Virus record (IMG/VR): IMGVR_UViG_3300005513_000032
Coordinates: 1-21,095 of that record
Length of the DNA stretch: 21,095 nt
Reading direction: 5' to 3' (one strand)
From: a virus
The number at the start of each line of letters is the position of its first letter. Position 1 is the stretch's first letter. Made by a program: the position numbers and the translations under genes. Below the pieces are notes generated by a model. That model was not told the DNA's origin. It searched no databases and worked only from the letters and a program-made list of their open reading frames with translations. Shown piece by piece: positions 1-17,287 of this stretch.

Positions 1-35
1 ATATCAAACGGAATGCGTTCGTCCTCGTGCAGCAT
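1..35 (-). CDS. 5' end of an unidentified virion-module gene (partial)
   Basis: The ATG at 35-33 overlaps the TAA of the hydroxylase-like gene upstream (TAATG). Only about 11 codons, reading MLHEDERIPFD, are inside the window before it runs off the left edge. The tight stop/start overlap is the pattern used by its neighbours and is the main support. The product cannot be identified from this fragment. Confidence 0.6.
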   Translation of the reverse strand, partial: MLHEDERIPFD

Positions 36-616
36 TAGTCGTTTCTCCGAACACAGATAATCAAGGTAATCCGTTCTTCGTCACTGTTATTAGTGACCCA
101 GTGCAGTAGCGAGTTGTCGAACGTATAAATATCGCCAGGCTCCGGGCTGAGGCTTTCATCCTCGAAGCAAAATGCCTGATCCTTGTTCCCTTTGACCTGC
201 ACGGCGAACTTTTCGTAATGCCTCGCGTGCCAGCCAGTATCTATGTGCGGCTTTACCCCGCCACCCGGAGGAATGCGGGTGATGAGTACGCCACCAAGCT
301 GTTTTCCGCCAACTCGGCGCACCACATGACGGGCCAGCGACCACGCGGCAGGAATCTTCCCGATTACGGGATACCAAACTGACGTATGGGCATCGTTGAA
401 GGATTCGCGGTCGCCCTTGAAGTTGGCCCAGTCGTTGTACCGCACCCAAATGTCATCTATCGACTTGTGGGGCGTGTCGTATGCTTCCGTTCGCTGCGTA
501 TGTGTGTTCCACACTTCCGGGTGGTCGGCGATCTGTGAAACAAGCCGGCTCACGTCAAGCCCTGAACCAAGTCTACGAATAGACATGCCTTGCGTCATCG
601 GCTCACAGGTTGTCAT
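35..616 (-). CDS. Aspartyl/asparaginyl beta-hydroxylase-like 2-oxoglutarate/Fe(II) oxygenase
   Basis: The 193-residue product has the metal-binding pattern of the Asp/Asn hydroxylase branch of the cupin-fold oxygenases. HID is at residues 124-126, and a distal His at 172 in SLLHWVTNNS is followed by a basic segment (ERITLIICVR) where 2-oxoglutarate is normally held. Such enzymes hydroxylate protein side chains using Fe(II), oxygen and 2-oxoglutarate; the substrate here is unknown, though a position among tail genes suggests a virion or host protein. It starts inside the 3' end of the preceding gene (14-base overlap). ATGs at codons 7 and 11 are alternative starts. Unlike most neighbours it contains no in-frame TAG. 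Confidence 0.75.
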   Translation of the reverse strand: MTTCEPMTQGMSIRRLGSGLDVSRLVSQIADHPEVWNTHTQRTEAYDTPHKSIDDIWVRYNDWANFKGDRESFNDAHTSVWYPVIGKIPAAWSLARHVVRRVGGKQLGGVLITRIPPGGGVKPHIDTGWHARHYEKFAVQVKGNKDQAFCFEDESLSPEPGDIYTFDNSLLHWVTNNSDEERITLIICVRRND

Positions 617-1085
617 TGATCGTCTTCGGGTTGAACCGTGGCAGCGGGGCGATCTGCGCGGCGCCCGACAAGCTATTGTTCTGCGCTACTTGCGTCTGCG
701 CGTTCACCGTGTCGGTGATGGCAGAAACTTGCTGACCCGCTGCCTGCAGCCCGGTCTGCACGTCAAGCACCTGCGTCTAAGTGTTGGCCGTCTGCGTGAT
801 GACTTGAGGCACGGTTGGCGCATCAATGCCGCCGAGCCGGGTTTCCGCAATTTCCATAAAGAATTTGTACCAAACCGGCATCATGCGGCCAGAATCATCA
901 AGCACGGCAACCTGCGCCCCGGGGAGCCAATTAACCCGTTTGCGAAGGCTGTTCGAACCGGCCCACGTTACCCTTCCGGTGGCTGAGCCAATGCCCGCCA
1001 CTGTGCGGGCTGACGCCGTGAAGGAGATGAATGGCGAGCTGGCACTGGATACGCCAGCGACCGTTGCGCATGATGCCGTTGCCAT
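603..1085 (-). CDS. Tail/virion-associated protein with one in-frame TAG
   Basis: The frame opens at the ATG overlapping the previous TAA (TAATG at 1087-1083) and runs to TGA at 605-603 if TAG at 779-777 (codon 103) is read through, giving 160 residues. The centre (NWLPGAQVAVLDD, MPVWYKFFMEIAETR) looks like small proteins found in phage tail modules. After the TAG the reading continues with polar, Gln/Thr-rich helical sequence (TQVLDVQTGLQAAGQQV) and the motif PLPRFNPKTINDN. This is the only recoded gene here whose first TAG is far from the start. Molecular role not recognised. Confidence 0.65.
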
Positions 1086-1663
1086 TAGTCAGGCAGGCCC
1101 AGTGTCCAACTTCCGATGACGTGTGACCCGGCAGACGGATAGCTCTGCTCGAGAATGGAGGACACTACCAGTGCCGAGCCGCCGCCCGTTGTCACACTGA
1201 TCGGCGCTCCGCCACTGGTAGCGGCCACTTGAAACGTGTCCGTGGTGACGTTTACTGCAAAATAGGTCGTGCCCTCGGTCAGCCCCGTTGGCATCGTGTC
1301 ACCATAGATCACGATAGTGCCATTCGTTGAAAAGCCGTGACCGGGACAGGTGAATACGCCCGTAGTGACGTTGGCGATGAACTCTTTCGGATTGCTTGCG
1401 TTCGGCGCATAGCCGACGTAGGTTGCGCCGTTCCACAATCCAAGCCATTTGACGGTTGTTCCGGCTGGAATAGCAAAAGTCACTGCCGAGGATAGCGTGC
1501 GAACTGCGCCTGAGGATGCACCGAAGGTCGCGGCCATCTTGGCATACGTGCCGCCGGTAACCTCATTGGCTCCGGTGGCTCCGGGGAATGCCGTGTGCGC
1601 ACTGATCTAGGTGATCGTCAGTGCGTTGAGCATGGTGTCTTTTGAGGCGGTGACAAAGCTCAT
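1085..1663 (-). CDS. Virion structural protein (tail fibre Gp80-like?) with one in-frame TAG
   Basis: The start ATG at 1663 overlaps the TGA of the gp10-like gene (ATGA), and the product begins MSFVTASKDTMLNALTIT. Codon 19 is TAG (1609-1607); the reading then continues ISAHTAFPGATGANEV and on to TAA at 1087-1085, 192 residues in total. The N-terminal motif with HTAFPGATGANEV resembles small phage structural proteins annotated as tail fibre or virion proteins. The rest is Gly/Thr/Ser-rich and probably beta-structured. Without suppression only an 18-residue peptide would be made. The family assignment is from memory of the motif. Confidence 0.7.
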
Positions 1664-3072
1664 TTGCTGCTCGCTGTAGCGTCAAGGTTGGCACCGTACA
1701 CCGCGATCTTCACGGGTTCGGTTGTGCGGATGCGGTAGACGCGGCGGCGGGACAATCCAAGGCGCCTAGCCACGCCACGGTTGCGATAGGCGCCAATCTG
1801 GCCTATGCGAACTTCGCGACTGTTACTGAAGTTTCGGCAACCGTCATCCGACCAGTCCAGCATCCATAGAGGATCGGCACCCGGTGTTGGCGGCGTGATC
1901 CCGTCAAGTCCAACGCCCATCTCGGCAATGATTTCAAGCCGGCTATGTCGGAGCCACTTATTCTCGTTCTCGATAACGGCCCACGCCCTCTCACGGGTGA
2001 TCGAATTTCCGTTATCGGTGAAGGCATTCAGGTCCAGCACGTATAGGTTGCCGCTGACGTAATCGCCGAGCACGTGCTGGCCGCCGAGGAACATGTAGGC
2101 GTTTCCGCGGTGCTGTTCCTGTGCGCCCGTGATTGGGTTGCGATAGGTCAGCTGCGTCCAGCGACGCGACGCGGCATCAAACGCCCACGTGGCATACCCA
2201 GGAAACGTCAGCACATAGAGCGTATGCCCGTTCTGCTGGTAGCAGTAGCCCCATGCGCCAGAAACGTCGCCATAGCCCGCGATGGCGTTTTCCAGAGCAT
2301 GCGTGGAGATGCGCGTCGGGCTGTACCCTTGGGCCATATAAACCATGCCGATGCCGCTATCGTTCTGACTGAGCCAAAACACGGTGGAGTCGGACTTGGC
2401 GGGGGAGTATTTGGCCGCGCAGCCATATTCCATGATGGCGGTTCGCACAAAGACGAGATCCTTGTCGCCCGAAGTCTGCGCAATCTCCGTTGTCGTGGTG
2501 TTGAACAGCCACAGCTCGCGGTGATCAGATAGCACCGAAACGATGGGGTCAGGATTAGCCTCGGAACTGGCAAAGTTCAGTGCATCAAGGGTGGTTGCAT
2601 CGCCGATGTTCGTCCAGCCGTAAGTGCCATTCGTGTTGGGGAAGATGATGTAACTGTCTTGATACGTGCCCTGCGCTGTCGTCGGAGCGCCCGTAACCGA
2701 CACATAGGCCAGTGTCGAGAAGGTCAGAACATGCCATCCCGCTGAATGCATGACGGCGAGCTGCGTGTCGTTGTAAACAAGGCTTACACGCCCCGCCCCA
2801 GGAACGGCGCCGATCAGCGTTGAAACGCCAGCCGTCGTGACCTGATATAGCGAAGCACCCGAGACGACCCAGCCAAACCCATTGGCCGTTTCCGCCGCAC
2901 GGATCGGGCCTGTGCCGATGGTGGACAGCAGCCGCAGACCCGGCGCTCCGTAGAACATGCCCTCTTCGGACGACCCCGGAGGCGCGCCCTCAAAAAACAG
3001 GTTGACCAGCGTCTAGCCGGCCAATGGGAGCGATCGCGACTGATAGGCCGCGCCAAGGAAATCAGTCTTCAC
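1660..3072 (-). CDS. P22 gp10-like tail accessory / packaged-DNA stabilisation protein, one in-frame TAG
   Basis: The GTG at 3072 overlaps the preceding TGA (GTGA) and the frame closes at TGA 1662-1660, giving 470 residues with TAG at codon 20 (3015-3013). The N-terminus reads SRSLPLAG-(TAG)-TLVNLFFEG, which fits the gp10-type opening where a Gln followed by a V/I-N-L-Y/F-x-E segment is common; this supports TAG as Gln. In P22, gp10 forms part of the neck that plugs the portal after packaging. The remainder is long and beta-rich (VVSGASLYQVTTAGVSTLIG, DKDLVFVRTAIMEYGC, WAFDAASRRWTQLTY), typical of these proteins. It sits after the adaptor-like gene, as expected. Confidence 0.75.
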
Positions 3073-3719
3073 CGAGCAACCTGCGTCAATCGCGAGCCGC
3101 GCGTGAAGCGCTGGCGCTCGTTGGACAACGCGGCCATCAGACGGCCCGCATATTGAGACTTCCAGAGCGGCAGGCGACCGTCTTCACCGATGAATGGGGC
3201 TGACTCGGCCAGCGCGGCATAGAGCCACACATCCGGATAGCGGTTGAACGCAGCGTTCAGCGTGCCGGAAGAAATGTCGGGCGCCTTCTTGTAATACCGG
3301 CCAGCGATGACCGTGCCATCTGTCATTGTCGGGAAGAACAACAGGTTCAAGCCCTGCTGCGTGTACTTGCGGGCCGATCCGGAGCCGCCGCCCGCCTTGA
3401 GCAAGCGCAACTGGCCTTCTTCGGCGACGTAATCCATCGGGTAATCGCCCGATACCTGCACGCGGATTAGCTCAAGGCAGTCGGTGGGAAGTGGCGCGAC
3501 GTTGCCAGTGGCCGTGATGGCGAGCGGCGCCTCCATTTCGGCACAGCGCAGCGGCGGAAGTACGCTCTGCACGCCGGTCATGCCGTAATAGACAGCCTGC
3601 TCGCCCATGCTGATCAGCAGATCCAGCGTGGACTAGCTCAGGGCGCCAGCATTCGTGTCGTCGCCGTCGATCATCTTCAGCACGGCGGTACGAAAGTCGG
3701 TATAGGTCGTGAAGTTCAT
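3069..3719 (-). CDS. Head-tail adaptor-like protein (SU10/P22 gp4 type), one in-frame TAG
   Basis: The ATG at 3719 overlaps the previous stop as TGATG. The product begins MNFTTYTDFRTAVLKMIDGD, and TAG is codon 29 (3635-3633), followed by STLDLLISMGEQAVYYGMTG. Read through, it is 216 residues ending at TGA, which itself overlaps the next gene's GTG. The N-terminal pattern (YTDFRTAVLKMIDGDD then a helix of the LDLLISMGE type) and later RYYKKAPD and NRYPDVWLYAALAESAPF match phage adaptor proteins that sit between portal and tail. Gene order (capsid, small gene, adaptor, gp10-like) agrees. The exact family name is not certain. Confidence 0.7.
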
Positions 3720-4009
3720 CAGACACGGCCCCGTGAGACGCGGAAGCCCGACAGGGCTGGATCGTTCAACATGCGGTTGGCGTGCACGGGGTTACGGATG
3801 AACTCCGCAAAGCTGACGCCATTATCGTTGCAGTATTGCTGGATGATGATGTCGGGTATCTTGGCAAGCACCCGCATTTCACTATCGCCCGTCAGGCCGG
3901 CGCTCTAAAGCGCCCTGCAATGATCGGCAATAGCATGGAGATCATCCATGTTGGCTTCGTAGACGTGAGCCTCATGTGTGGCGCTCACTTCCTCGATACG
4001 TGCCCGCAT
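3719..4009 (-). CDS. Small conserved-type virion-module protein, one in-frame TAG
   Basis: This 96-residue gene only appears if TAG at 3907-3905 (codon 35) is read through: MRARIEEVSATHEAHVYEA up to DHCRAL, then SAGLTGDSEMRVL, then IIIQQYCNDNGVSFAEFI and NDPALSGFRVSRGRV. A good ribosome-binding site, AAGGAG, lies 5-6 bases upstream of ATG 4009. The stop TGA overlaps the next ATG. The C-terminal half looks like a folded helical protein, and the type recurs beside adaptor genes in podovirus-like modules, but no function is known to me. Confidence 0.7.
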
Positions 4010-4021
4010 GTCATCTCCTTG

Positions 4022-4053
4022 AATAAAGAGGGGCCGCTATGCCAGCCGGCCCC
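4022..4053 (-). terminator. Rho-independent terminator after the capsid gene
   Basis: On the minus strand a 7-bp perfect stem GGGGCCG / CGGCCCC with a 10-base loop is followed at once by TCTTTATTC. It lies in the short gap between the capsid stop (4061) and the next ribosome-binding site. An internal terminator here would raise capsid expression relative to the downstream neck genes, a common arrangement in phage late operons. Confidence 0.6.
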
Positions 4054-4060
4054 GGGTTCA

Positions 4061-5032
4061 TCAGCTCAGGTCAAGAATCGACGCGAGCGGCTTCTCGTCA
4101 CGCACCACCAGCGTGACTTCGGTACGAATCTGCCACTGCTTGGCATCGCCCGTGGTCGCCATCTGCTCCGACTCGAACGGGCGCAACTGACCGAGGGCCA
4201 GCTTGTCCGTGTCGATCAGGTAGGCCGAAGCCGTCAAGCCCAGTCCGCCCGACGCCATCACGCGGTCAGGAACCACCTTCGTGACGCCGAAGTCATGGCC
4301 GTAGAAGGTGAACGCGGTGTTCAGCACCAAGCTGCCATCCGCCTTGCTGGACGGCACGGTCTGCTGCCGGGTCACGTTGCCGGTCAGTGCTGATACCTTC
4401 TACTTCTGCGCCGGAGGAACCAGCAGCATGGTCGAGTCACCACCATTCTGGTACGCGGCCAGCACCGCAGCCTTCACCAGAACGTCGGAGATGGCACGGG
4501 CCGTACCTGCCACCGGAGCCGTGTTGGTGACCGGGTTCGGAGCCACGCCAGCGCCCGCACCCACGCTGGCGTTCAGCGCAATGAAGCCGTACAGGCCGCG
4601 CATCTGGCCTGCAACGCCCGAAGTGCCAGTGACGGCAGCGCCGTTGCCGATGGCTGCCGCCTCGATGTCGCGACGAAGCTCAACCATCTTCTTCGCTTTC
4701 AAGCGATTGATTTCGGACGATCGGCCGTATTTCTTCACCGTCTCGGCGGTGTTGGACACGCTCAAGGTGTCCTGGAAGATCTGCGTGCGGTTGTTCAGCG
4801 GGCCGGGCTGGGTCTGCGCGGCGTAAGCGGCGTCGGCGCCTTCAATCGCAGCATTCGCGGCGTTGGTGGCGCGGTAGCTGTCACGGGTCCACTCGTGGAA
4901 CACGTTCGACACCTTGATGCGGTCGATGGCACTGACCAGCGGGGTGTCCTACGGGTTGAAGTTGTAGATGCGGTCTTCCACATCCTCCGCCACACGGACG
5001 ATGGACGGGGTAATCAGGGTGTTCGCAGTCAT
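4061..5032 (-). CDS. Major capsid protein (SU10/DUF5309-like), two in-frame TAGs
   Basis: The frame runs from ATG 5032 (AAGGA 7-8 bases upstream) to TGA 4063-4061, 323 residues, with TAG at codon 28 (4951-4949) and codon 211 (4402-4400). Key segments are EDVEDRIYNFNP-(TAG)-DTPLVSAIDRIKVSN, FHEWTRDSYR, and VPPAQK-(TAG)-KVSALTGN. The NP-x-DTP and HEW blocks and the PPAQKx block near two-thirds of the length are typical of the DUF5309 HK97-fold capsids. A polar residue such as Gln fits both TAG positions. It follows the scaffold by 9 bases. Without suppression only 27 residues would be made. Confidence 0.85.
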
Positions 5033-5041
5033 GTCTTTTCC

Positions 5042-5968
5042 TTAACCTAGCAAGTTGCCGAGGGATTGAAGGCTCTGTTTCGCATCGAAGCGTTTGAACG
5101 CCTCGGACTTGCTCACAGTCGCCCTGTTGGGTTGGTTTGCCGCCGATGGCTTAGCCACCCTTGGCAGTTGCGCAACGGGCTTGAGCGCGGCTGTTTTAGC
5201 CTGCAACTCGTCGTAGGCTTTTGCCTTAGCGGCAATCTCCCACAAGCCTTTCTGCACATAACCGATGTCTGCGGTCTTGGGGCTGATGCCAGCCTTGCCA
5301 AGATATGCCGCCAGATCGTCGATTGTTTTCTCACCAAAACCCGGCAGGGTGTCCTTCAGCGCCTTCTCGGTAGCATCGGCTTGCTGAGCAATCCACGCTT
5401 GGCGTTGCCGCTGCGTTTCCTGCTGAACATTCGCGATGGCCTCATGTGCTGCGTTCAACTGGCCCTTGCGTGTTTCGTATTGCTCCTTCTGTGCGATGTA
5501 CAGCCCCACGTCCTGTGAGGCCAATTCAACAGACGGTGGTGCGCCGATCTGCGATTCCGCAAACTTGGCGAACGCGTTCAGACGGTCAAGGGTCGCCGTC
5601 AACGCCCTTTCATTGTGCTGGCGGTATTCGTCGGCCTGTGCCTGCAGCGCCTCGACGTGCCTGCGCTCCTCCGCGACAGCCATCGTTTTCTGCGAGTAGT
5701 CGAAGCCCTTCTGAGCCAGCTCGATAACCTCGGACTTCTTGAGCGGAACGTCCTTGCCATCATGCTTAAGCACAATGGTGGCATCGTCGCCCTTGTCGCC
5801 CTCGGCCTATTCCTGACCCTCTTCGGTTTCCTCCCGCTCCTCGGCTTCCTCGCCTTCCTATTCCTGCTCAAGCTCCGGCTCAGCTTCCTGATCCGCGCCG
5901 TCCATCAGACCAGCCAGACCCGAAAGCGTATCGCCCTCGGCTGGCTGCATTTCTGCGTCACCTGCCAT
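5042..5968 (-). CDS. Scaffolding protein, two in-frame TAGs
   Basis: The start is ATG 5968 with GAGG about 8-9 bases upstream; the stop is TAA 5044-5042, 308 residues. TAGs at codon 37 (5860-5858) and codon 54 (5809-5807) lie in a very acidic N-terminus (ELEQE-(TAG)-EGEEAEEREE and EEGQE-(TAG)-AEGDK), where Gln alternates with Glu. The middle is a long charged coiled coil (AEERRHVEALQAQADEYR, NVQQETQRQRQAWIAQQ) and the C-terminus is basic (SEAFKRFDAKQSLQ), as expected of an internal scaffold that contacts capsid. Its position directly before the capsid gene supports the assignment; no sequence match was tested. Confidence 0.8.
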
Positions 5969-6106
5969 GTTGTATACCTCGTTGGTGGAATGAATCTGCG
6001 GTGGCCGGCGCTGATCTCCGGCATGATGGCACTACTCCGTTGCCTCTGACCTAGCCAGCTAGAGAGGGACTTAGCGCATCAGTCGGCGCGTTCACCGCAA
6101 AACTTG

Positions 6107-6340
6107 TTACCCGATCGCCGCATTGATGACGTTGATCAGGCTCGTTACTGCCTCCTCTGGTGTCTTGCCAATTCCGCAGAACTCGCCGCTAGCCTCACCA
6201 AGCCGCACCAGGCCGGATTCGTTACCTATTTCAGCGCACCAACTCGGCGCGGATTGGTCGCCGTCGAACGATAGGGCGAACTCCTTGTCGCGCGGCTTGA
6301 TTTCAATGGCAAGTTCAATAAGTTTTGACAGGTTACTCAT
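6107..6340 (-). CDS. Small hypothetical protein, HicB-like motif
   Basis: This 77-residue gene starts at an ATG overlapping the preceding TGA (ATGA) and ends at TAA. The segment WCAEIGNESGLVRLGEAS followed by GIGKTPEEAVTSLINVI recalls the small alpha/beta fold shared by HicB-type proteins (W-x-A-x-I, then TPEEA and a helix). No toxin-like partner is adjacent, so it is unlikely to be a toxin-antitoxin pair. It is one of two genes in the virion module without an in-frame TAG. Role unknown. A 138-base gap with no evident gene follows before the scaffold start. Confidence 0.65.
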   Translation of the reverse strand: MSNLSKLIELAIEIKPRDKEFALSFDGDQSAPSWCAEIGNESGLVRLGEASGEFCGIGKTPEEAVTSLINVINAAIG

Positions 6341-6618
6341 CGCCGAAACACTCCCTTGAACCGTTCAGCGCGTGATTGCTCAGCCTCGATGGCCTTGCTC
6401 TGCATCTTGCCGGTGATCATCGTCTGTTCCAGCACGTCACCAAGCCGTTTATGGCACTGGATCATGCGCCAGAGGTGATCGCGCTTCGCCTCGTCCGCTT
6501 CGATCTGCCAGCGAGCCAGGATTTCATCCTTGAGCTGCGCCATCGTCTCGATATAGACGCGGTTTGACAGTACATCGGCGGCGAGTTGACCGCGTTCAAG
6601 CTCTTCCTATGGGGTCAT
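6337..6618 (-). CDS. Small helical protein between portal and scaffold, TAG at codon 4
   Basis: Translation begins MTP-(TAG)-EELERGQLAADVLSNRV and then continues MAQLKDEILARWQIEADE. The ATG at 6618 overlaps the portal TGA (ATGA) and the stop TGA overlaps the next ATG, so the 93-residue frame with TAG as sense fits exactly between its neighbours. A later in-frame Met (6543) would give 68 residues, but it lacks the overlapping junction and drops sequence that continues the same amphipathic helix. The protein is highly charged and predicted helical; no known function. With TAG at codon 4 termination would leave a tripeptide. Confidence 0.7.
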
Positions 6619-8846
6619 TCATTCTCGCCCTATTGTTCGCCCTTCGTGGCGGCCTGCAATTCGGCAATCTGCTGCTGCAACTGCGCAATCTGCTCGTTCT
6701 GCTGAGCGTCGATGTCCTTGTGCGCCATATCGTGCGCGGTGGCGACGCCGTGAATATGCGTGTCGTGCGCTTTGCGCTGAACATCAGCGGCCTTGACCCC
6801 GATATTTCCCTGATCGGCCTGCGCCTTGACTCCGAGTGAGGCCATCGCATGCTGGTGTTTCTGATCCGCCTCACGCGCCCGCTGCTGCAATTCCATCTGC
6901 TTGAGGTACGTGTCCGACTGCTGCTGCGCGCTCATCTGCTTGAGCTGGCCGTTTTCTTGACCGAGTTGTTCCAGCTGCTGCTTGGTCTGCGCCATTTCCT
7001 GCTGTTGCTGCTGTTGCTGAGCCTGATACGCCTGCGGGTTCGGCGGCATACCTGACGGCTGCGGACTAACGAAGCGTTCCGGTTCCTTGAACTCGGCGGC
7101 CTGCACGTACAGTTTGACGGTTTCGGCCACCTGAGCTGGCGTGACGATGCCGAACGGGGCAGCTTGCATCTGCACCTGCATCAGGCCCATGACGCGCGCG
7201 GCAAGTTGTTCCTTGCTGCCCGTTCCCAAGCCGACCTTGATCGTAGTGTTGAACTGGTCTTTCCACTCGGACGGATTCACAGCGACCCACGACCCGTTGA
7301 CCTGCATCTGTTCGGTCTTGTCCTGGAACTGGATCGCCAGCTTCAGCATCTTGCTGAAAAGCCCCTTCATGCCGACCGCGAACATGCGCGACATCAGCTC
7401 AAGGCGCATGTCTGCCTTTTGCGTGATGATGCTGACGCCGGTCGCGGTCTTGTTTAGCGAGTTGGCGTCGGTGCCCTGCGAATAGCGCGTGAAGCCGGTG
7501 CGGTTCTCTTTCCATCCCTCAAGCCATTCGTTGAACTCGTAGGCGGGAGCGCCGAGAGCGGGCTGTACGATGGGCTGAATGGCGGTGTTGGCCGGACCGT
7601 GGCCGCGCACCGCGCCACCAGGCCGATTCTCCAGCCAGTCGTCCATGTTCACGCCAGCATCCAGGTTGATGTAGGTCCGCTGATTGACGGACAGCATCAT
7701 ATTGTCTTGGATAGCGCGGATGACGTTGGTGCGCAGCTTCTGTGGCTGCAACGCCATGTCGGCAGGGCAGTCGCCGAAGAACGCATGCGGACGAGGAATG
7801 GGGCATATCCACACGAACGGATGGCCGTCGCACTTTTCGTACTCGACCAGCTTCTGCTCGATCATGTGGCAGCACAGCCATTCGGCAATGCCGTCGCCGT
7901 CCGCGTCCAGCTTGATATAGACCTCGCTGCACTGATACAGCTTGTGGCTTTCGTGCGGCTCAACAGCCGTGTAGTCGCTGTTCAGGCCAAGCTAGGCAAG
8001 CGTTTCGCTGTCGTAGCGCGAGTTGCTGCCGGCCTGCCCGATGTCGGTCAGGTCGTAACCCTCTTCCTCTAGCTCAAACTTTCGCTTCGGGTAGACGTGG
8101 GCAATCATCGCCGGATCGTCACCCCAGCGCGCATTCGCATCCACGCGCACTTCGTGAGGGGCGCATGCGGCCACCTTCACCGCCATGCGTTTATCTTCCT
8201 TCTTGAGCGATACCGTCAGCGTCGGTGCGGCGGGCTGCTGCGGTAGCGGCTGTCCATCCGGGCCATACTGCGCTGGCATGGTCTGTGACGGCTCAACCTG
8301 AGGTTCGTCGTCAAGCTCCCAGCCCGACTACTGAAGCATCGCCACCTGCTCCTGCGTGATGCCGGAATAGGTAGTTTGCAGATCCTCGAATTCCTCCTCG
8401 GCCCACACCTTGACGAAGCCGACCTTCTGGATCAGTGAATCCTTGAACCAGTCGTACATGATGCCTACACCGTCGTTGCGGGTGTAGAACAGGTAATTAA
8501 CGTAAGCCGTGGCGAGCTGGGCAACCTGATCCTGATCGGGTCGGCGCGCCTGGAACTCGACCGCCTCGTCATCCGTCACAAACGGCTTCATGATCTGCGG
8601 CAACATCGCCTCGATCGTGTCAGCCACGTCGGTCGCTACGAAATCGCTGCGGTCGTCAATCTCTGGCGGGGCTAGTTCGCCAGTAGCTTCGGCGTTGTAA
8701 TATTCAAGGTTGCGAAGACGCTGCTAGGCAATCTCGGTGCCCGGACCGCCCATGCTGTTTTCCAGCGCCATGCGGCAGGCAAGCTCGACCTCAGCATCCG
8801 TCATCTTGGCGTGCTTGATTGACGCCTTCTTGGACGTGTATGCCAT
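6615..8846 (-). CDS. P22-like portal protein, four in-frame TAGs
   Basis: The start ATG overlaps the terminase TAA (TAATG at 8848-8844) and the true stop is TGA 6617-6615, giving 743 residues. TAGs are codons 41 (8726-8724), 173 (8330-8328), 285 (7994-7992) and 739 (6632-6630); all lie in one frame. Family signals are DDRSDFVATDVADTIEAMLP, YDWFKDSLIQKVGFVKVWAE, EVYIKLDADGDGIAEWL, NVIRAIQDNMMLSVNQ and GVSIITQKADMRLELMSRMF, all typical of podovirus P22-type portals that form the dodecameric DNA gate. The C-terminus is a Gln-rich coiled coil. Read with the standard code this gene falls into several pieces. Confidence 0.9.
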
Positions 8847-10096
8847 TAGCGGGTAAGCCTGCGGTAGCTGATTGGTTGCATATCTTCGTTAACCATCTTG
8901 GGCGCCACACTTGCCATGTAGCGGAACATATCGGCGCCGTGACTCCACTCGTCGTGGACGGGTGCGCCAGGCTCGCCCGTTGAAACAGGAACGCCGCGCT
9001 TGTACCGCTTGAGGCACTGAATCAGCCGCTCGCACTTGAGCTTGTCGATGTAGAGCTGGCCGAACGCCATGCGTGCCGCCTTAATGCCTGTCTCGACCGG
9101 CTGAATCGGAACGATTCCCACATCCCAGCCAAGCTCGCGCATGATCTGCTCGGCACTCTTGCCGGTCTTGTAGTCACCGTGGGCGCCGTCGTGAGGTAGC
9201 CAGAGACGGCCCCAGTTGAGGTTCTTCTGTTTCAGCTCAGCCGAACACCAGTCGAGCGTCTTGTGGTCAACCTCGATGTACTTGATCAGCCGAAGCGACG
9301 AGATATGCCGCTGGCATAGGCCAATCGCCATCTTGTCGTTCCAGCCCAAGTCGAAAATGACGTGAACCTTGAGCGCCGGGTCATACGGGAATAGGCCAAT
9401 GCGCCCCTCTTCCTGCGCCCTGGCAATCTCGTCAGCGTAGATCGCGCCAGTCACGGCAGGCTTGCAGCGTCCTTCCCATATGTTGTCGTAGTCAGCCCTT
9501 GGTGTCGTGGCGAGCGCGTGTTGCCGCTCAGCCTCAAGCACATCAGGGAACCACGGGTTGTCCGCGTAATTGATCTGCACCACCACGGAATCAGGGGGCG
9601 GATTCTCGATGAAACGGACGTAGGTTTCGTCGGTGTCCAGCTCGGGGTTTAGCGTGATGGTGATTCGCGACCCGTCTTTGCGGATCGTCGGGATAAGAAT
9701 GTCCCACGATCGTTTGCTGATCGCCTGGGCTTCCTCGGCCCAAACGTCATCAACACCCTCGAACGACTTGATCGACTCGGCGGTCTGGTCGCTTAGGCCG
9801 GAAAATAGAAACTCGGTTCCGTTCGCGCCCTTGATGATGTTCTGCTGGACTTCGTAGAACGCGCCAAGGCCCATGGATTGAATCTGGTCACTCAGGAGCT
9901 TGTGCACGGAATCGCGGATGGACTTCTGCACCTCGCGAGTGCACAGAAATCGTCTTTTCGACTAAGCGCCCCGGATCAGGTAGGAGCGAGCAACACCCCA
10001 CGACTTAGCACCACCGCGGCCACCATGCAGGATCGTGTATCGCTGTGGGCCAAACAAGCACTGCAGCTTGGCGGGGAACTCAATCTGGCTTGACAA
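8846..10096 (-). CDS. terL: Terminase large subunit, one in-frame TAG
   Basis: The 416-residue frame runs from TTG 10096, inside the end of the small subunit gene, to TAA 8848-8846. Walker A is GGRGGAKS (residues 25-32), and the Walker-B-like segment is DDVWAEEAQA followed by ITITLNPE. The nuclease half shows VIFDLGWNDKMAIGL and the late acidic motif HDEWSHGADMFRYM. TAG is codon 45 (9964-9962), between SYLIRGA and SKRRFLCTREVQKSIRDSV, so the ATPase P-loop and the rest of the enzyme can only be joined by reading through it. The TTG start is chosen because an in-frame TGA lies two codons upstream and no better start precedes the P-loop. Confidence 0.9.
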
Positions 10097-10346
10097 AGGT
10101 CACCGTCAGGCTGGTCTTGAGTGGGTTGTCAGGATCGCCAGACACCGTCATCGGCAGAACCTTGCCAACCAGCGTAAGGAACGCGTTCGGGTTGGTCTGC
10201 GCCTAGGTCAGCAGATACTTGGCTCCGCCCGCCTTGTCGAGTGCCGTCAGGATCATGGCCTTTACGTCAGCCGTCACCTTATTCGGTACGCCTTTTGGCC
10301 TACCCTTGCCTGCATTTCCCCTATTCGCGCCTACTTTGGGTTCCAC
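10080..10346 (-). CDS. terS: Small terminase / DUF5681-like packaging protein, one in-frame TAG
   Basis: GTG 10346 is preceded by GAGGAAA at a good spacing; an in-frame TAA lies seven codons further up, so this start is favoured. The 88-residue product has a basic N-terminus with GKGRPKGVPNK (AT-hook-like, DNA-binding) and a helical C-terminal half reading AKYLLT-(TAG)-AQTNPNAFLTLVGKVLP. I recall proteins with the pattern YLxxQAxxNPxAFLxLxGKVLP upstream of large terminases; Gln is the usual residue at the TAG position (codon 48, 10205-10203). It overlaps the large subunit gene by 17 bases. It is shorter than most small terminases, so the name rests mainly on position. Confidence 0.7.
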
Positions 10347-10421: not shown

Positions 10422-10592
10422 TCAGTCATCGTCTTCACTGTTGGCGGGGGCGGACGGAATCGAACCGTCATAAGGCGGGTTAGAGCCGCTGTCAGCACCC
10501 AAGCGCGCCCCACTAAAGATCGCATCCCAATGGCTGGCAAATGTCGCCTGGTCCACGCTGAACGGGCGTGGCGCTGATCCCTTACCGTTCAT
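10422..10592 (-). CDS. Small phage protein whose 3' half contains the suppressor tRNA
   Basis: ATG 10592 to TGA 10424-10422 encodes 56 residues: MNGKGSAPRPFSVDQATF, ASHWDAIFSG, then a low-complexity tail ending NSEDDD. The first ~28 residues strongly resemble a family of short phage proteins starting M-x-GKGSAPRP-F/Y-S-V and ending with a FD/WD-xIFG motif, normally soon followed by the stop. Here the frame continues through the whole tRNA-like sequence (10442-10512), which codes for ARLGADSGSNPPYDGSIPSA. The start overlaps the preceding small gene by 11 bases. Function unknown. If the tRNA is processed out, this message must be destroyed. Confidence 0.65.
   Translation of the reverse strand: MNGKGSAPRPFSVDQATFASHWDAIFSGARLGADSGSNPPYDGSIPSAPANSEDDD
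10442..10512 (-). tRNA. Putative amber-suppressor tRNA, anticodon CUA, Gln-like
   Basis: Read on the minus strand from 10512. Acceptor 5' strand TGGGGCG pairs at six of seven positions with CGCCCCC (10452-10446), with a U1-C72 mismatch. The discriminator is G and CCA is encoded (10444-10442). The T-arm is perfect: GACGG, loop TTCGATT, CCGTC. The anticodon loop is CTCTAAC with U33, CUA at 10483-10481 and A37, on a stem with four Watson-Crick pairs plus an A-C. G73, G2-C71 and G3-C70 are glutamine identity features in E. coli. Oddity: only 15 bases lie between acceptor and anticodon stem, and no clean D-stem is visible. It could fail a strict tRNA model. Confidence 0.7.
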
Positions 10593-10701
10593 ACGGCTTC
10601 GGCACAGTCGGCTTAACCGGATTCGTCGTCTTGACCTTGTACGTCAGCCAGCTATAGGCGCAGACGATGGCGAGGAGGAGTAGCAGGGCGATGGCGATCA
10701 T
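10582..10701 (-). CDS. 39-residue single-span membrane protein
   Basis: ATG 10701 overlaps the Rz1 TGA (ATGA), and the frame ends at TAA 10584-10582. The product is MIAIALLLLLAIVCAYSWL followed by TYKVKTTNPVKPTVPKPYER: one N-terminal hydrophobic span and a basic, proline-rich tail. Coupled start, hydrophobic span and position directly after the spanin pair suggest a lysis-associated protein, perhaps a second holin or antiholin; this is inference. Confidence 0.55.
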   Translation of the reverse strand: MIAIALLLLLAIVCAYSWLTYKVKTTNPVKPTVPKPYER

Positions 10702-10970
10702 GGCTGCAGCCCCTTTATCCTTGCCAGCTTGTCGTTTGAAGCGCCTAGGCATGCCTTGAGATGTATCGCGTACTCGACCAGTGAGCCGTTCGTCAGCTCG
10801 CTAGGCAACGCAACCGTGCAAACCTTTACTAGCTCGGCAGGCAAGGCAACGTAGACCGGAACCTTGACCTCGACCGTCTCAGTCCTGATTGCCGGTTTCG
10901 CGCAAGCGGCCAGCGACAACAGCAGGGACGCGAGTATTAGCCCACGCTTTGACAGTCGGCTCGCGCTCAT
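10698..10970 (-). CDS. Rz1: o-spanin, Rz1-like outer-membrane lipoprotein
   Basis: The 90-residue product begins MSASRLSKRGLILASLLLS and has lipobox LAAC (Cys23), predicting signal peptidase II cleavage and an outer-membrane lipoprotein. The gene starts inside Rz in another frame (92-base overlap), the usual nested or overlapping spanin arrangement. The periplasmic part is longer than lambda Rz1 (VEVKVPVYVALPAELVKVC and on) and less proline-rich. With Rz it is expected to fuse inner and outer membranes in the last step of lysis of a Gram-negative host. Confidence 0.8.
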   Translation of the reverse strand: MSASRLSKRGLILASLLLSLAACAKPAIRTETVEVKVPVYVALPAELVKVCTVALPSELTNGSLVEYAIHLKACLGASNDKLARIKGLQP

Positions 10971-11301
10971 AAGTGGCCTGCAATGACTTGATGGACTTCT
11001 GTGCGCCGGCTTGGCGCTTGGTATCGCCCTGTGCGCTCAACCGCGCCTGCTTGTTAGCTTCGGGCTGATTGGCCTTGCACGTTCTGGCCCATTCGGCGTT
11101 CGCACCCTGTAGCTTTGCGATCGTTGCCAGATTGGTTTTCTGCGCACCCGCGAAGGTGCTGACTGCTGACTGCAGCGTGACGGCACTCGCCCGGTAATGC
11201 CTGACCTCAACATGCTGGACAGCCGCAACCATCAACAGCAGCCCAGCCAGTGCGGCAAAGATCGTGGCGCGGATGCCGCCGAGTAGTTCAATCAGGCCCA
11301 T
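10879..11301 (-). CDS. Rz: i-spanin, Rz-like inner-membrane subunit
   Basis: The start is taken at ATG 11301, overlapping the end of the small gene upstream; longer readings in this frame only translate that gene out of frame. The 140-residue product has one N-terminal membrane span (about residues 12-28, TIFAALAGLLLMVAAVQ) and a long periplasmic helix (TLQSAVSTFAGAQKTN, LSAQGDTKRQAGAQKS). The C-terminus EREPTVKAWANTRVPAVV resembles the conserved Rz ending where a W-A-x-T-x-V-P motif precedes a final arginine-rich segment. It overlaps Rz1. Confidence 0.85.
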   Translation of the reverse strand: MGLIELLGGIRATIFAALAGLLLMVAAVQHVEVRHYRASAVTLQSAVSTFAGAQKTNLATIAKLQGANAEWARTCKANQPEANKQARLSAQGDTKRQAGAQKSIKSLQATYEREPTVKAWANTRVPAVVAGRLRETGNQD

Positions 11302-11399
11302 ACGGCGAACCTGCATACCGCATAGGCACCGCCGATCAGAATCCACAGCTTCGGGTTGAGAATCGTGTAGACGATCCGCTCTTTCCGCGTGTAAATCAT
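11292..11399 (-). CDS. 35-residue putative membrane protein
   Basis: ATG 11399 overlaps the protease TGA (ATGA), and the TGA at 11294-11292 overlaps the Rz start, so the gene fits exactly between its neighbours. The product is MIYTRKERIVYTILNP, then a hydrophobic stretch KLWILIGGAYAVCRFAVWA. A basic N-terminus and one hydrophobic helix suggest a small inner-membrane protein, possibly a holin or antiholin. It is too short for function prediction. Confidence 0.55.
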   Translation of the reverse strand: MIYTRKERIVYTILNPKLWILIGGAYAVCRFAVWA

Positions 11400-11974
11400 C
11401 GCCCCGCCTCATCAAACTGCGTCTTGGTGAACATCAGTGGGAAAGCTCCCATCACCTTCATGAATCCGTTCGGGCTGATCTGCAGATCCAGCACTGATGT
11501 CACGGCGACTAGCTGGCCGTCCATGCTGAAAAGGCCACTGCCGCTATCGCCGAAGTAGCCGTTGTAGTCGATGACGTACAGCGTCTGGCCGTTGATGACG
11601 GCATAGCCCGACACATATCCATGCCGGTACATGTCGCGCAACCTGCCGGGGTTGCCGAGGTTGAACACTTCCTCGCCCTGGTACACATCGGGCCTCACTT
11701 CCACCCAATGTGTATAGGTTGCGGTTACGCGGACGATCGCATGGTCACGATGGTCAAGCTCAACCCGTAGCACTTCAACGGGAACGCTATCGACCGCGAG
11801 ATTCTTTGTGCCGGTCAGGCAGTGTTCGGCGGTCAGGATCGCATGCGGTCCAATCACCGTTCCGCTACAGGTGCCATCATCCATTCCCAGCAGAACGGTG
11901 GCGTTGTGCACTCGCGCAATCGGGCTGACGCAGCTCGCCAGCCCCACACACAGTAGGGCTGCGAGGATGCGCAT
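11396..11974 (-). CDS. Secreted trypsin-like serine protease lipoprotein
   Basis: The 192-residue product begins MRILAALLCVGLASC, a signal peptide with lipobox LASC (Cys15). A chymotrypsin-fold protease domain follows: TCSGTVIGPHAILTAEHCL with catalytic His51, HRDHAIVRV with Asp77, and YFGDSGSGLF with Ser144. The triad and the GDSG motif are intact and in the right order and spacing, so an active enzyme is expected, anchored in a membrane on the periplasmic side. It sits in the lysis cassette ahead of the spanin genes. Possible roles are degrading envelope proteins at lysis or altering the lysogen or infected-cell surface; the sequence does not decide. Confidence 0.8.
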   Translation of the reverse strand: MRILAALLCVGLASCVSPIARVHNATVLLGMDDGTCSGTVIGPHAILTAEHCLTGTKNLAVDSVPVEVLRVELDHRDHAIVRVTATYTHWVEVRPDVYQGEEVFNLGNPGRLRDMYRHGYVSGYAVINGQTLYVIDYNGYFGDSGSGLFSMDGQLVAVTSVLDLQISPNGFMKVMGAFPLMFTKTQFDEAGR

Positions 11975-11977
11975 GGG

Positions 11978-12244
11978 TTAGCAGCGAATGGTTAGCGGGT
12001 TAATGGGGTCGCAAGCAATGTATGCAGGACGCTGGTATGTTTCAAATCGGCGCATCGCATCGCAAGGCACGTCACATCGAGCTGGCGCAGCAGTCATTGG
12101 AATCACTCGCTGCCCATAGCCCGCCTGAATGGCGCCGCAGTGGCTACATTTAGGTGGCGGCGGCGGCGCTATGCTTGACCATGCACCTTGGTGAGCCATG
12201 ACATTCCCGCCACAAATAGAGCAGGCGCCAATACAGGTGAGCAT
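11978..12244 (-). CDS. Small cysteine-rich (zinc-ribbon-like) protein
   Basis: This 88-residue product has two CxxC pairs (CSICGG near the start, CSHCGA near residue 33) around a proline run (APPPPPK), and further Cys residues later. The pairs suggest a small zinc ribbon. The stop TAA is 3 bases before the protease start and the start lies 3 bases after the preceding TAA, so it belongs to the same transcript. An internal ATG (MAHQGAWSS) is an alternative start but would lose the first CxxC. No function recognised. Confidence 0.55.
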   Translation of the reverse strand: MLTCIGACSICGGNVMAHQGAWSSIAPPPPPKCSHCGAIQAGYGQRVIPMTAAPARCDVPCDAMRRFETYQRPAYIACDPINPLTIRC

Positions 12245-12247
12245 GGT

Positions 12248-12457
12248 TTAGCTCGCCTTGGCTTCGTATGGAGCTTCTTTGACGATCAGATAGCGTGTGC
12301 TGGTGATGCCAGCCTGCGTCATCGCGGTCGGGTAATCGCAGCGCAGCGTCTCGGCCAATTTGTCTGACTCGCCTTCCGGGTAGCCCTTATCCCATACCTC
12401 GACGATGACCTTCCAGTCAGAAGTGTCGGCATTCTCGATGCGGATTTGCTTGGTCAT
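12248..12457 (-). CDS. Small hypothetical protein
   Basis: The 69-residue product MTKQIRIENADTSDWKVIV, then EVWDKGYPEGESDKLAETL and later TSTRYLIVKEAPYEAKAS, is soluble, acidic and probably a small beta-alpha fold. It lies directly after a gene remnant (12461-12544), with three bases between that stop and the ATG. I recognise similar small proteins in phage late regions but no function. Confidence 0.6.
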   Translation of the reverse strand: MTKQIRIENADTSDWKVIVEVWDKGYPEGESDKLAETLRCDYPTAMTQAGITSTRYLIVKEAPYEAKAS

Positions 12458-12460
12458 TGG

Positions 12461-12544
12461 TTAGGCGTCCGTAGACTTCTTGGTAACGGCGGAATCAGCG
12501 ACGTTTGAGCCGAAGTACAGGCCCAGCGTCCATGTTAAATAGCT
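12461..12544 (-). pseudogene. Orphan 3' end of a small gene, downstream of the HNH nuclease
   Basis: Immediately after the HNH stop, in the same frame, the sequence reads SYLTWTLGLYFGSNVADSAV and ends KKSTDA with TAA at 12463-12461. WTLGLYFGSNVADSAV looks like the C-terminus of a small phage membrane or lysis-type protein, but there is no ATG, GTG or TTG start in this frame after the HNH stop. The simplest reading is a gene whose 5' part was lost when the HNH nuclease gene was inserted. The alternative, that it is noncoding, cannot be excluded. Confidence 0.4.
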
Positions 12545-13252
12545 TTACAAAAGCGTTTGTATGCGACAACTCTTTGATAGATTATCTTTCGCCCAAAGCG
12601 GCCGGAGATTCGTTAGCGCCCACGCGCGGCGCAATTCGGGGTCGTCCGATCCGGTAATCGTGAAGCTCGCCAGCGGAATGATGTGATCGACATGCCATTT
12701 GCCGTAGTTGTCCCAGCTCATGCCCTTAGCGAATTGGCGTTCCAGATGGGCGCGAAGTTCATCCTTCCCGTACCAAAGAAGATCAATCCATCGTCTGCCA
12801 CACTTCTTGTCGCGCAAAACACCCCATATCTGACGCCCCATGCGCCTAGCTGGGCCGCGCATGCTGGCGGACTTTCGCTTGCGTAATAGTTCGGCGTTGC
12901 CCGGTGCCGACTTCCATTTATCCAAACTTTTACGCTGGGACGCTTTGGACTTTTCCGGGTTAGCGGATCGCCATTTAGACGCCCTATCCTTTACGGTACC
13001 CTTATTTTCCAGATACCACTTTTGAAGTCTTTCTTTGGCTTTTTCACGATTTCTAGCATGCCATTCTCGGCTAATAGCCAAGTCTCTTTCTCGGCGCCCT
13101 GGATTATTGAGCTGTATCTCCATCGCCCTTGTGCGATCACATATACGGCAGATTGAGTTATATCCGTCCGAATTTCGCGCCTTCCTGGTGAACCCCTCAA
13201 GGGGCTTTTCCAAACCGCACCGCGTGCAGGATTTCGTCACTTTGTCATTCAC
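12545..13252 (-). CDS. HNH endonuclease, homing type, in the lysis cassette
   Basis: The GTG at 13252 overlaps the endolysin TGA (GTGA); 235 residues to TAA. An N-terminal zinc finger (CTRCGLEKPLEGF with a later ICRIC) leads into a long basic helical region (REKAKERLQKWYLENKG) and a C-terminal HNH domain with WHVDHIIPLASF and NLRPLWAKDNLSKS. This architecture is that of free-standing phage HNH nucleases, which behave as selfish DNA. It separates the endolysin from the spanins and is followed by an apparent gene remnant. No in-frame TAG. Confidence 0.85.
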   Translation of the reverse strand: MNDKVTKSCTRCGLEKPLEGFTRKARNSDGYNSICRICDRTRAMEIQLNNPGRRERDLAISREWHARNREKAKERLQKWYLENKGTVKDRASKWRSANPEKSKASQRKSLDKWKSAPGNAELLRKRKSASMRGPARRMGRQIWGVLRDKKCGRRWIDLLWYGKDELRAHLERQFAKGMSWDNYGKWHVDHIIPLASFTITGSDDPELRRAWALTNLRPLWAKDNLSKSCRIQTLL

Positions 13253-13713
13253 GGCGGCGTCTCGCACAATTTGCGTTCGGCAGCGCGGCGCTTGACCAGC
13301 CCATTTAGCTGACGGCCTTGGCTATACGTCCACCTGCTCAGCTCGCCGCAGAACGGCAGTCCAGCGTTAAGTTTGCGCATCAGTCCGGAATGACAGGCGG
13401 CGGTCGCGCCAACGTTGTATTCCCAGCTCAGGATGGCAGCAGCTTGGTTGCGCGTGATCGGCCGCTGAATACACGGCTCAACCTTGGCCCACTCGATGGC
13501 TAGGCGCTTGTCGAGCCGCTGCAGGCATTCATCCATCGTGGCATGCATACCCAGCCTGATATCCGGGCCTGTCTCGCCAGCGCACAACGTCGCGGTGCCA
13601 TTCACATCGTCGTAGGTGTGCGGGACAACGCCCTCGTAGTGCGCAACCAATGGCGGCACGATCATCAGCAACGCTCCGATGGCTATGCCGGATCTGCCCT
13701 TAGGCGCCGGCAT
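13249..13713 (-). CDS. SAR endolysin, glycoside hydrolase 24 lysozyme
   Basis: The 154-residue product starts MPAPKGRSGIAIGALLMIV: a weakly hydrophobic, Gly/Ala-rich signal-arrest-release segment (about residues 9-24). The catalytic triad of the T4-lysozyme family follows with the standard spacing: Glu27 in HYEG, eight residues, Asp36 in YDD, five residues, Thr42 before LCAGET. Later motifs TRNQAAAILSWEYNVG and LPFCGELSRWTYSQG are usual for P22/P1-type endolysins. It would be secreted by the host Sec system, held inactive in the membrane, and released when the holin depolarises it. It overlaps the holin gene by 14 bases. Confidence 0.9.
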   Translation of the reverse strand: MPAPKGRSGIAIGALLMIVPPLVAHYEGVVPHTYDDVNGTATLCAGETGPDIRLGMHATMDECLQRLDKRLAIEWAKVEPCIQRPITRNQAAAILSWEYNVGATAACHSGLMRKLNAGLPFCGELSRWTYSQGRQLNGLVKRRAAERKLCETPP

Positions 13714-16990: not shown

Positions 16991-17287
16991 CTATTTCGTG
17001 CAAGCCATCCTTGAAAACCTTGCACTATCTTTGTTGCCATCACTGGCAAGGTAATAGACGTTCCTCCGACTCACTCCGAGTCGCTCCGCCGTAACATCCG
17101 GCCCCAGCGTCGGCAGCAACTTCGCCGCCTCAATAGCTTTGCGGTCACGGTTTGCGCCCTCGTCAATGGCTATCATGTTATTTATGGTTTCCGCGCTGAA
17201 CTTCTCGCAGCGAGCAACTGACCAGCCGCAATCGTGCAGCAGCTCGGCCAGCTCACCCAACTTCGCATGTGCGGCTTGGCTAATCAT
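16991..17287 (-). CDS. Helix-turn-helix protein ending at TAG
   Basis: The 98-residue product begins MISQAAHAKLGELAELLHDC. Near residues 66-82 it has a helix-turn-helix-like segment (VTAERLGVSRRNVYYLASD), suggesting DNA binding. Start ATG 17287 has AAGGGGTG overlapping the preceding stop. The only stop is TAG at 16993-16991. This is the only gene in the window that appears to end in TAG; if UAG were sense here the reading would continue into the small basic protein downstream for 167 residues in total. Because that gene has its own ribosome-binding site, I take TAG as the stop. Confidence 0.6.
   Translation of the reverse strand: MISQAAHAKLGELAELLHDCGWSVARCEKFSAETINNMIAIDEGANRDRKAIEAAKLLPTLGPDVTAERLGVSRRNVYYLASDGNKDSARFSRMACTK

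Follow-up and report, generated by a model that had tools for sequence, protein, structure and literature searches.

A group of temperate phages of Pseudomonadota carries the amber codon UAG within its packaging and virion genes, preferentially near the gene starts, together with a CUA tRNA at the head of the same block, and comparison with homologues supports the reading of this codon as glutamine there. From this arrangement we infer that UAG serves as a lock on virion production opened by the co-encoded suppressor tRNA, a function that we consider somewhat more probable than its alternatives in the absence of expression data. The reason for stop-codon recoding in phages is still open, and proposals of late-gene regulation concern chiefly large uncultured gut phages. 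In the group described here the genomes are small and temperate, hosts carrying the prophage have been sequenced, the TAGs are few and lie at defined positions, and the prediction is clear; this makes the recoding question testable by one tRNA deletion or one codon change.

In-frame TAG codons in the packaging and virion block

The window, meaning the whole 21,095-nt stretch of viral DNA analyzed, contains the following features, with each TAG given by the position of its lowest base.

603..1085, minus strand: late gene; TAG 777 (codon 103 from the first start, 43 from a later one)
1085..1663, minus strand: head/fibre-type protein; TAG 1607 (codon 19); phrog_240
1660..3072, minus strand: head closure Hc3 (gp10-like); TAG 3013 (codon 20); phrog_578
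3069..3719, minus strand: adaptor; TAG 3633 (codon 29); PF24175
3719..4009, minus strand: late gene; TAG 3905 (codon 35); weak phrog_3982
4061..5032, minus strand: major capsid protein; TAG 4949, 4400 (codons 28, 211); PF17236 SU10_MCP
5042..5968, minus strand: scaffold; TAG 5858, 5807 (codons 37, 54); phrog_3927
6107..6340, minus strand: small late gene without TAG
6337..6618, minus strand: small late gene; TAG 6607 (codon 4)
6615..8846, minus strand: portal; TAG 8724, 8328, 7992, 6630 (codons 41, 173, 285, 739); PF23899 SU10_portal
8846..10096, minus strand: large terminase (terL); TAG 9962 (codon 45); PF04466
10080..10346, minus strand: probable small terminase (terS), adjoining terL; TAG 10203 (codon 48); phrog_11043, function unknown
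10442..10512, minus strand: suppressor tRNA with anticodon CUA, between the lysis genes and terS; ARAGORN
10698..13713, minus strand: lysis region, no TAG, upstream of the tRNA
10698-10970, minus strand: spanin (lysis region)
10879-11415, minus strand: overlapping frame (lysis region)
11396-11974, minus strand: trypsin-like protease beside the lysis genes; PF13365
13249-13713, minus strand: lysozyme (lysis region)

As the initial annotation had reported, 16 in-frame TAGs fall in 11 genes, each with coding sequence in the same frame on both sides, and every read-through frame closes with TGA or TAA and has no other internal stop. These are 11 of the 12 consecutive minus-strand genes from terS (10080-10346) to 603-1085, with 6107-6340 as the exception. 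In terL, the Walker-A segment lies 5' of the TAG at codon 45 and the remainder of the protein 3' of it. Full-length proteins are restored in the hallmark late genes by UAG read-through, which is one criterion for phages of genetic code 15 (UAG read as Gln). At 386 TAG sites in the same phage group, standard-code homologues match both flanks of the codon. Judged by such homologues, which span the codon on both sides, the in-frame TAGs are more than chance. Two cases call for caution: TAG 6630, as codon 739 of 743 in the portal gene, may be a stop close to the end of the frame, and where gene 603-1085 starts is not certain.

The early genes of the window phage contain no convincing internal TAG, and a few of them end in TAG. 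Apparent TAG ends of early genes were seen in a 41-kb contig nearly identical to the window (G001) at 25049-25345 (window 16991-17287), 31720-32244, and 39990-41006, and the integrase frame of G001 is apparently among the early genes that end this way. An aspartyl/asparaginyl beta-hydroxylase-like gene (window 35-616, PF05118) lies within the late block without a TAG. The stretch from the spanin to terS yielded no consensus for a promoter or a terminator. Pfam assigns the capsid, portal, and adaptor to SU10-type families, and the presence of the SU10_MCP, SU10_portal, and SU10_adaptor domains meets the criteria for an SU10-type virion module; of the earlier label "lambdoid/P22-like Pseudomonadota-type," the Pseudomonadota part stands and "P22-like" is loose.

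Relatives, lifestyle, and hosts

Searches of IMG/VR with terminase and capsid returned the near-identical contig (L001, the same as G001), a set of close relatives with terL at about 94%, and numerous remoter ones, both recoded and not. An integrase is present in many contigs of the group. Dyella sp. SG609 harbours one recoded relative as a prophage, and a second recoded prophage lies inside a 520-kb contig, with host genes on both sides, in a genome of the same family as Dyella. The phage group is temperate, and two relatives are prophages. The suspicion that recoding occurs here in an unusual setting proved sound, these being small, temperate, 58% GC phages of Pseudomonadota and not large gut phages.

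A single metagenome contig such as the window leaves room for decay of a prophage or for sequencing errors as the source of the interruptions. However, the same pattern recurs in many contigs and two isolate genomes, where only TAG and never TAA or TGA interrupts the frames, and the proteins are otherwise conserved, which leaves this explanation practically without standing. It could also be supposed that the host reads UAG as an amino acid and that these are simply the genes of an alternatively coded host. No evidence supporting this was found, and we consider it very unlikely: RF1 is above the model cut-off in both known hosts, 15 of 70 sampled genes of Dyella SG609 end in TAG, and phage early genes also end in TAG. 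UAG is therefore a stop in the hosts and in early phage genes and glutamine in the virion block, with the restriction that the hosts are those of two relatives and not of the window phage.

UAG as glutamine and the CUA suppressor tRNA

The assignment of UAG to glutamine, initially drawn from protein context, was borne out by the tabulated homologue residues and by a CUA tRNA. In called late genes, TAG and CAG face the same residue profile; beyond codon 60, the Gln share is 0.53 for TAG and 0.54 for CAG. Glutamine is ahead of the next residue by at least 20 log-units in 10 of 12 recoded genomes; the number of sites in G008 and L086 is too small for this comparison. This comparison supports UAG being read as glutamine in the virion block. 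An initial tabulation also showed tryptophan opposite TAG, a shadow-frame artefact that was gone when only called late genes were used.

The initial annotation inferred UAG decoding without mention of a tRNA, and one lies directly upstream of terS. ARAGORN finds a single tRNA in the window (10442-10512, minus strand), with anticodon CUA, an encoded CCA, a U1.C72 mismatch, G73, a reduced D arm, and a canonical T loop. It scores 56.9 bits with model R1 and falls under the Rfam threshold, probably owing to its very short D arm. Its base pairs covary: among four tRNA homologues, 8 pairs are changed on both sides, and 95% of cells are paired versus 39-54% in slid controls. Wherever a recoded contig extends over the slot upstream of terS/terL, it has a CUA tRNA there, including contigs in which ARAGORN did not detect one (L003, L012, L086, L150, and L190). 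TAG-bearing genes sit downstream of this tRNA; of eight large contigs, seven give Fisher p values from 6e-6 to 9e-9, and the sparse G008 gives 0.03.

The backbones of these tRNAs vary from canonical to short D arm to long variable arm, and all CUA tRNAs read in the group have a 1:72 mismatch, G2-C71, and G73, which are features favourable for GlnRS. Charging by the host GlnRS is inferred. ARAGORN labels the tRNA "tRNA-Pyl," and the short D arm of the window tRNA might be cited in favour of UAG as pyrrolysine, but the label seems to rest on the anticodon only. With homologues carrying glutamine, no PylS over the cut-off found in known hosts or phages, and a window tRNA with a canonical T loop and a GlnRS-type acceptor end, pyrrolysine can be given next to no credence.

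Close relatives may differ strongly in this slot. L003 has a long-variable-arm tRNA (999-1104) where the window has its short-D-arm form, though the L003 terminase is 94% identical to that of the window, and this L003 tRNA is of quite another kind than the suppressors that its close relatives carry there (window 10442-10512 and L002 1023-1097). It looks as if the slot tRNA had been swapped between relatives with the 1:72 mismatch, G73, and CUA kept. In line with glutamine, a model made from eight of the group's CUA tRNAs gives its highest score in the Dyella host genome to tRNA-Gln(CUG) (78.5 versus 62.8 bits), and the anticodon arm of the L013 tRNA differs from the Dyella tRNA-Gln(CUG) core by a single base, G36 to A. 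In L093, a non-recoded relative, positions 1940-2014 encode a tRNA-Gln(UUG) in which U1.U72 is mismatched, a possible ancestor type of the suppressor.

TAG codons cluster at gene starts

The initial annotation took the TAGs for plain sense codons; their N-terminal clustering points to more. Across 216 late genes of 12 recoded genomes, TAG makes up about 21% of Gln codons in the first 60 positions against about 7% in the rest of the gene (p=4e-24), with shares of 0.21 in codons 1-20, 0.24 in 21-40, and 0.18 in 41-60, then 0.09 falling to 0.06. This p value overstates independence, the genomes being related, but the bias is nonetheless seen in separate lineages. A prophage found later has the same bias (0.255 versus 0.108, p=0.003), and in two sparse genomes 10 of 10 and 5 of 5 late TAGs lie within codons 1-60, where 2.1 and 0.7 were expected. 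Misplaced start codons were considered as a source of the bias. It persists among sites flanked on both sides by standard-code homology (0.233 versus 0.075), and wrong starts are therefore not the cause for most sites.

The number of genes with an early TAG also exceeds a random draw made at the raised N-terminal rate in G001 (p=0.011), G017 (p=0.004), L089 (p<0.001), and G009 (p=0.035), and no significant evenness beyond the N-terminal rate was found in G003, G006, G008, G010, L016, L086, L087, or L090. In the TAG-rich relatives G004, L016, and L020 the bias is weak or nonsignificant. At single sites TAG was retained no better than CAA, so the sites turn over. The control was limited to one gut code-15 phage, phAss-1, and six related loci. 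phAss-1 itself had no N-terminal TAG excess; its pooled relatives had earlier TAG positions (Mann-Whitney U test [MWU], p=0.004) and no codon 1-60 excess (0.25-0.33 versus 0.40 in codons 61-120). Unlike those of phAss-1, the TAGs of this group are not scattered synonyms of CAG.

Recoded capsid genes whose N-terminus is complete carry a TAG by codon 73 without exception; six different sites are used, depending on lineage (codon 9, 14-16, 21, 28, 42, or 73). In standard homologues, codons 28 and 42 most often correspond to Ser, Thr, Asp, or Glu, with no Gln listed, although TCG becomes TAG in one step and CAG in two, which may explain part of the TAG at Ser sites. The capsid tree requires seven changes between recoded and standard states, gains and losses counted alike, six of them forced by well-supported branches, and the terminase tree also requires seven, four of them forced. 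Repeated, independent origins are thereby shown. L027, a standard-code phage nested in a recoded clade, has CAG at capsid codon 16 where others have TAG, likely a reversion to CAG.

The main rival to a regulatory role for UAG is ordinary code-15 recoding without any gate. In that case CAG would drift to TAG once a suppressor is present, and TAG would persist near gene starts; incomplete suppression is cheapest there, since it avoids the long truncated capsid products that are wasteful or poisonous. Keeping UAG where it is cheapest explains part of the data: it predicts the N-terminal bias without regulation, it accommodates TAG sites that turn over like CAA sites, and it fits TAG-rich genomes with TAGs throughout. 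However, such tolerance should spare the most highly expressed gene, and the capsid gene always has an early TAG, at independent sites. The early occupancy of genes is also too even in four genomes, and phAss-1 lacks such a bias. We retain drift and tolerance as a serious possibility, if the less probable one.

A proposed UAG gate on virion production

The position and reading of UAG, the tRNA, glutamine from homologues, RF1 in the standard-code hosts of two relatives, the clustering, and the repeated origins are established, and the gate function is an inference. In the proposed scheme, early and lysis genes would stay on the standard code, with UAG absent or a stop, and nearly every packaging or virion gene would carry at least one UAG, preferably within the first ~60 codons. 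The CUA tRNA at the head of the virion block would be charged with glutamine by host GlnRS and would be scarce in the lysogen or in early infection. Leaky late mRNA would then yield short peptides only, with little downstream expression owing to polarity, and late transcription would supply enough tRNA for full translation of the virion genes, a coherent feed-forward delay. An early UAG would block most tightly and would minimize waste or poisoning from long, truncated capsid products, and the result would be a two-key lock in which virion proteins are made only when both the tRNA and the virion genes are expressed.

A further-reaching form of this proposal, on which we are evenly balanced, holds that UAG is a regulatory element and not a reassigned codon, that selection repeatedly installs an early amber in the capsid gene and its neighbours even at non-Gln sites, and that the late-made stable tRNA is a second key guarding lysogens against leaky late expression. 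The TAG-free lysis genes fit poorly with a lock on lysis.

Relation to known recoded phages

Phages reading UAG as Gln are known from the gut, among them crAss-like, Lak, and phAss-1 phages (PMC7886860, PMC9523058, PMC10607447), and code-15 gut phages are also the subject of Borges et al. 2022, as represented in papers that cite it. Suppressor tRNAs in UAG-to-Gln phages, late-gene recoding, and a regulatory role are all known or proposed (PMC7886860, PMC9523058, PMC10136315, PMC10879173). In the limited set of literature searched, we found no report of this phage group or of a gene-start TAG bias.

Like gut code-15 phages, the group uses UAG as Gln mostly in late genes, has a phage CUA tRNA and standard-code hosts, and has switched repeatedly at short phylogenetic distance. 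Unlike them, its members are about 40 kb, temperate, GC-rich, and associated with Pseudomonadota, with sparse TAGs concentrated at gene starts, TAG-free lysis genes in the window, and a tRNA whose constant place is in front of the virion block. A phage-encoded CUA tRNA is frequent in code-15 phages and not universal. An even spread of TAG as a CAG synonym, seen in phAss-1, is not a formal code-15 criterion and is not seen in this group.

The suppressor tRNAs linked to theta ribozymes (PMC10879173) are similar in that a late-gene code switch by suppressor tRNA has been proposed for them; unlike in that system, no ribozyme family matched the window at Rfam gathering thresholds. The group's tRNAs also recall the supE and CUA initiator-tRNA variants of Escherichia coli, with a CUA anticodon, a weak or mismatched 1:72 pair, and Gln at UAG. 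Those variants are charged by GlnRS. In contrast to them, the group's tRNAs are natural phage genes with diverse backbones. One family consists of 71-nt CUA tRNAs with a very short D arm (D loop of about 3 nt) and occurs at window 10442-10512, L150 9002-9072, L012 2488-2558, L190 3176-3246, and L199 205-275; the L150 and L012 members have a noncanonical T loop (CGCAATT).
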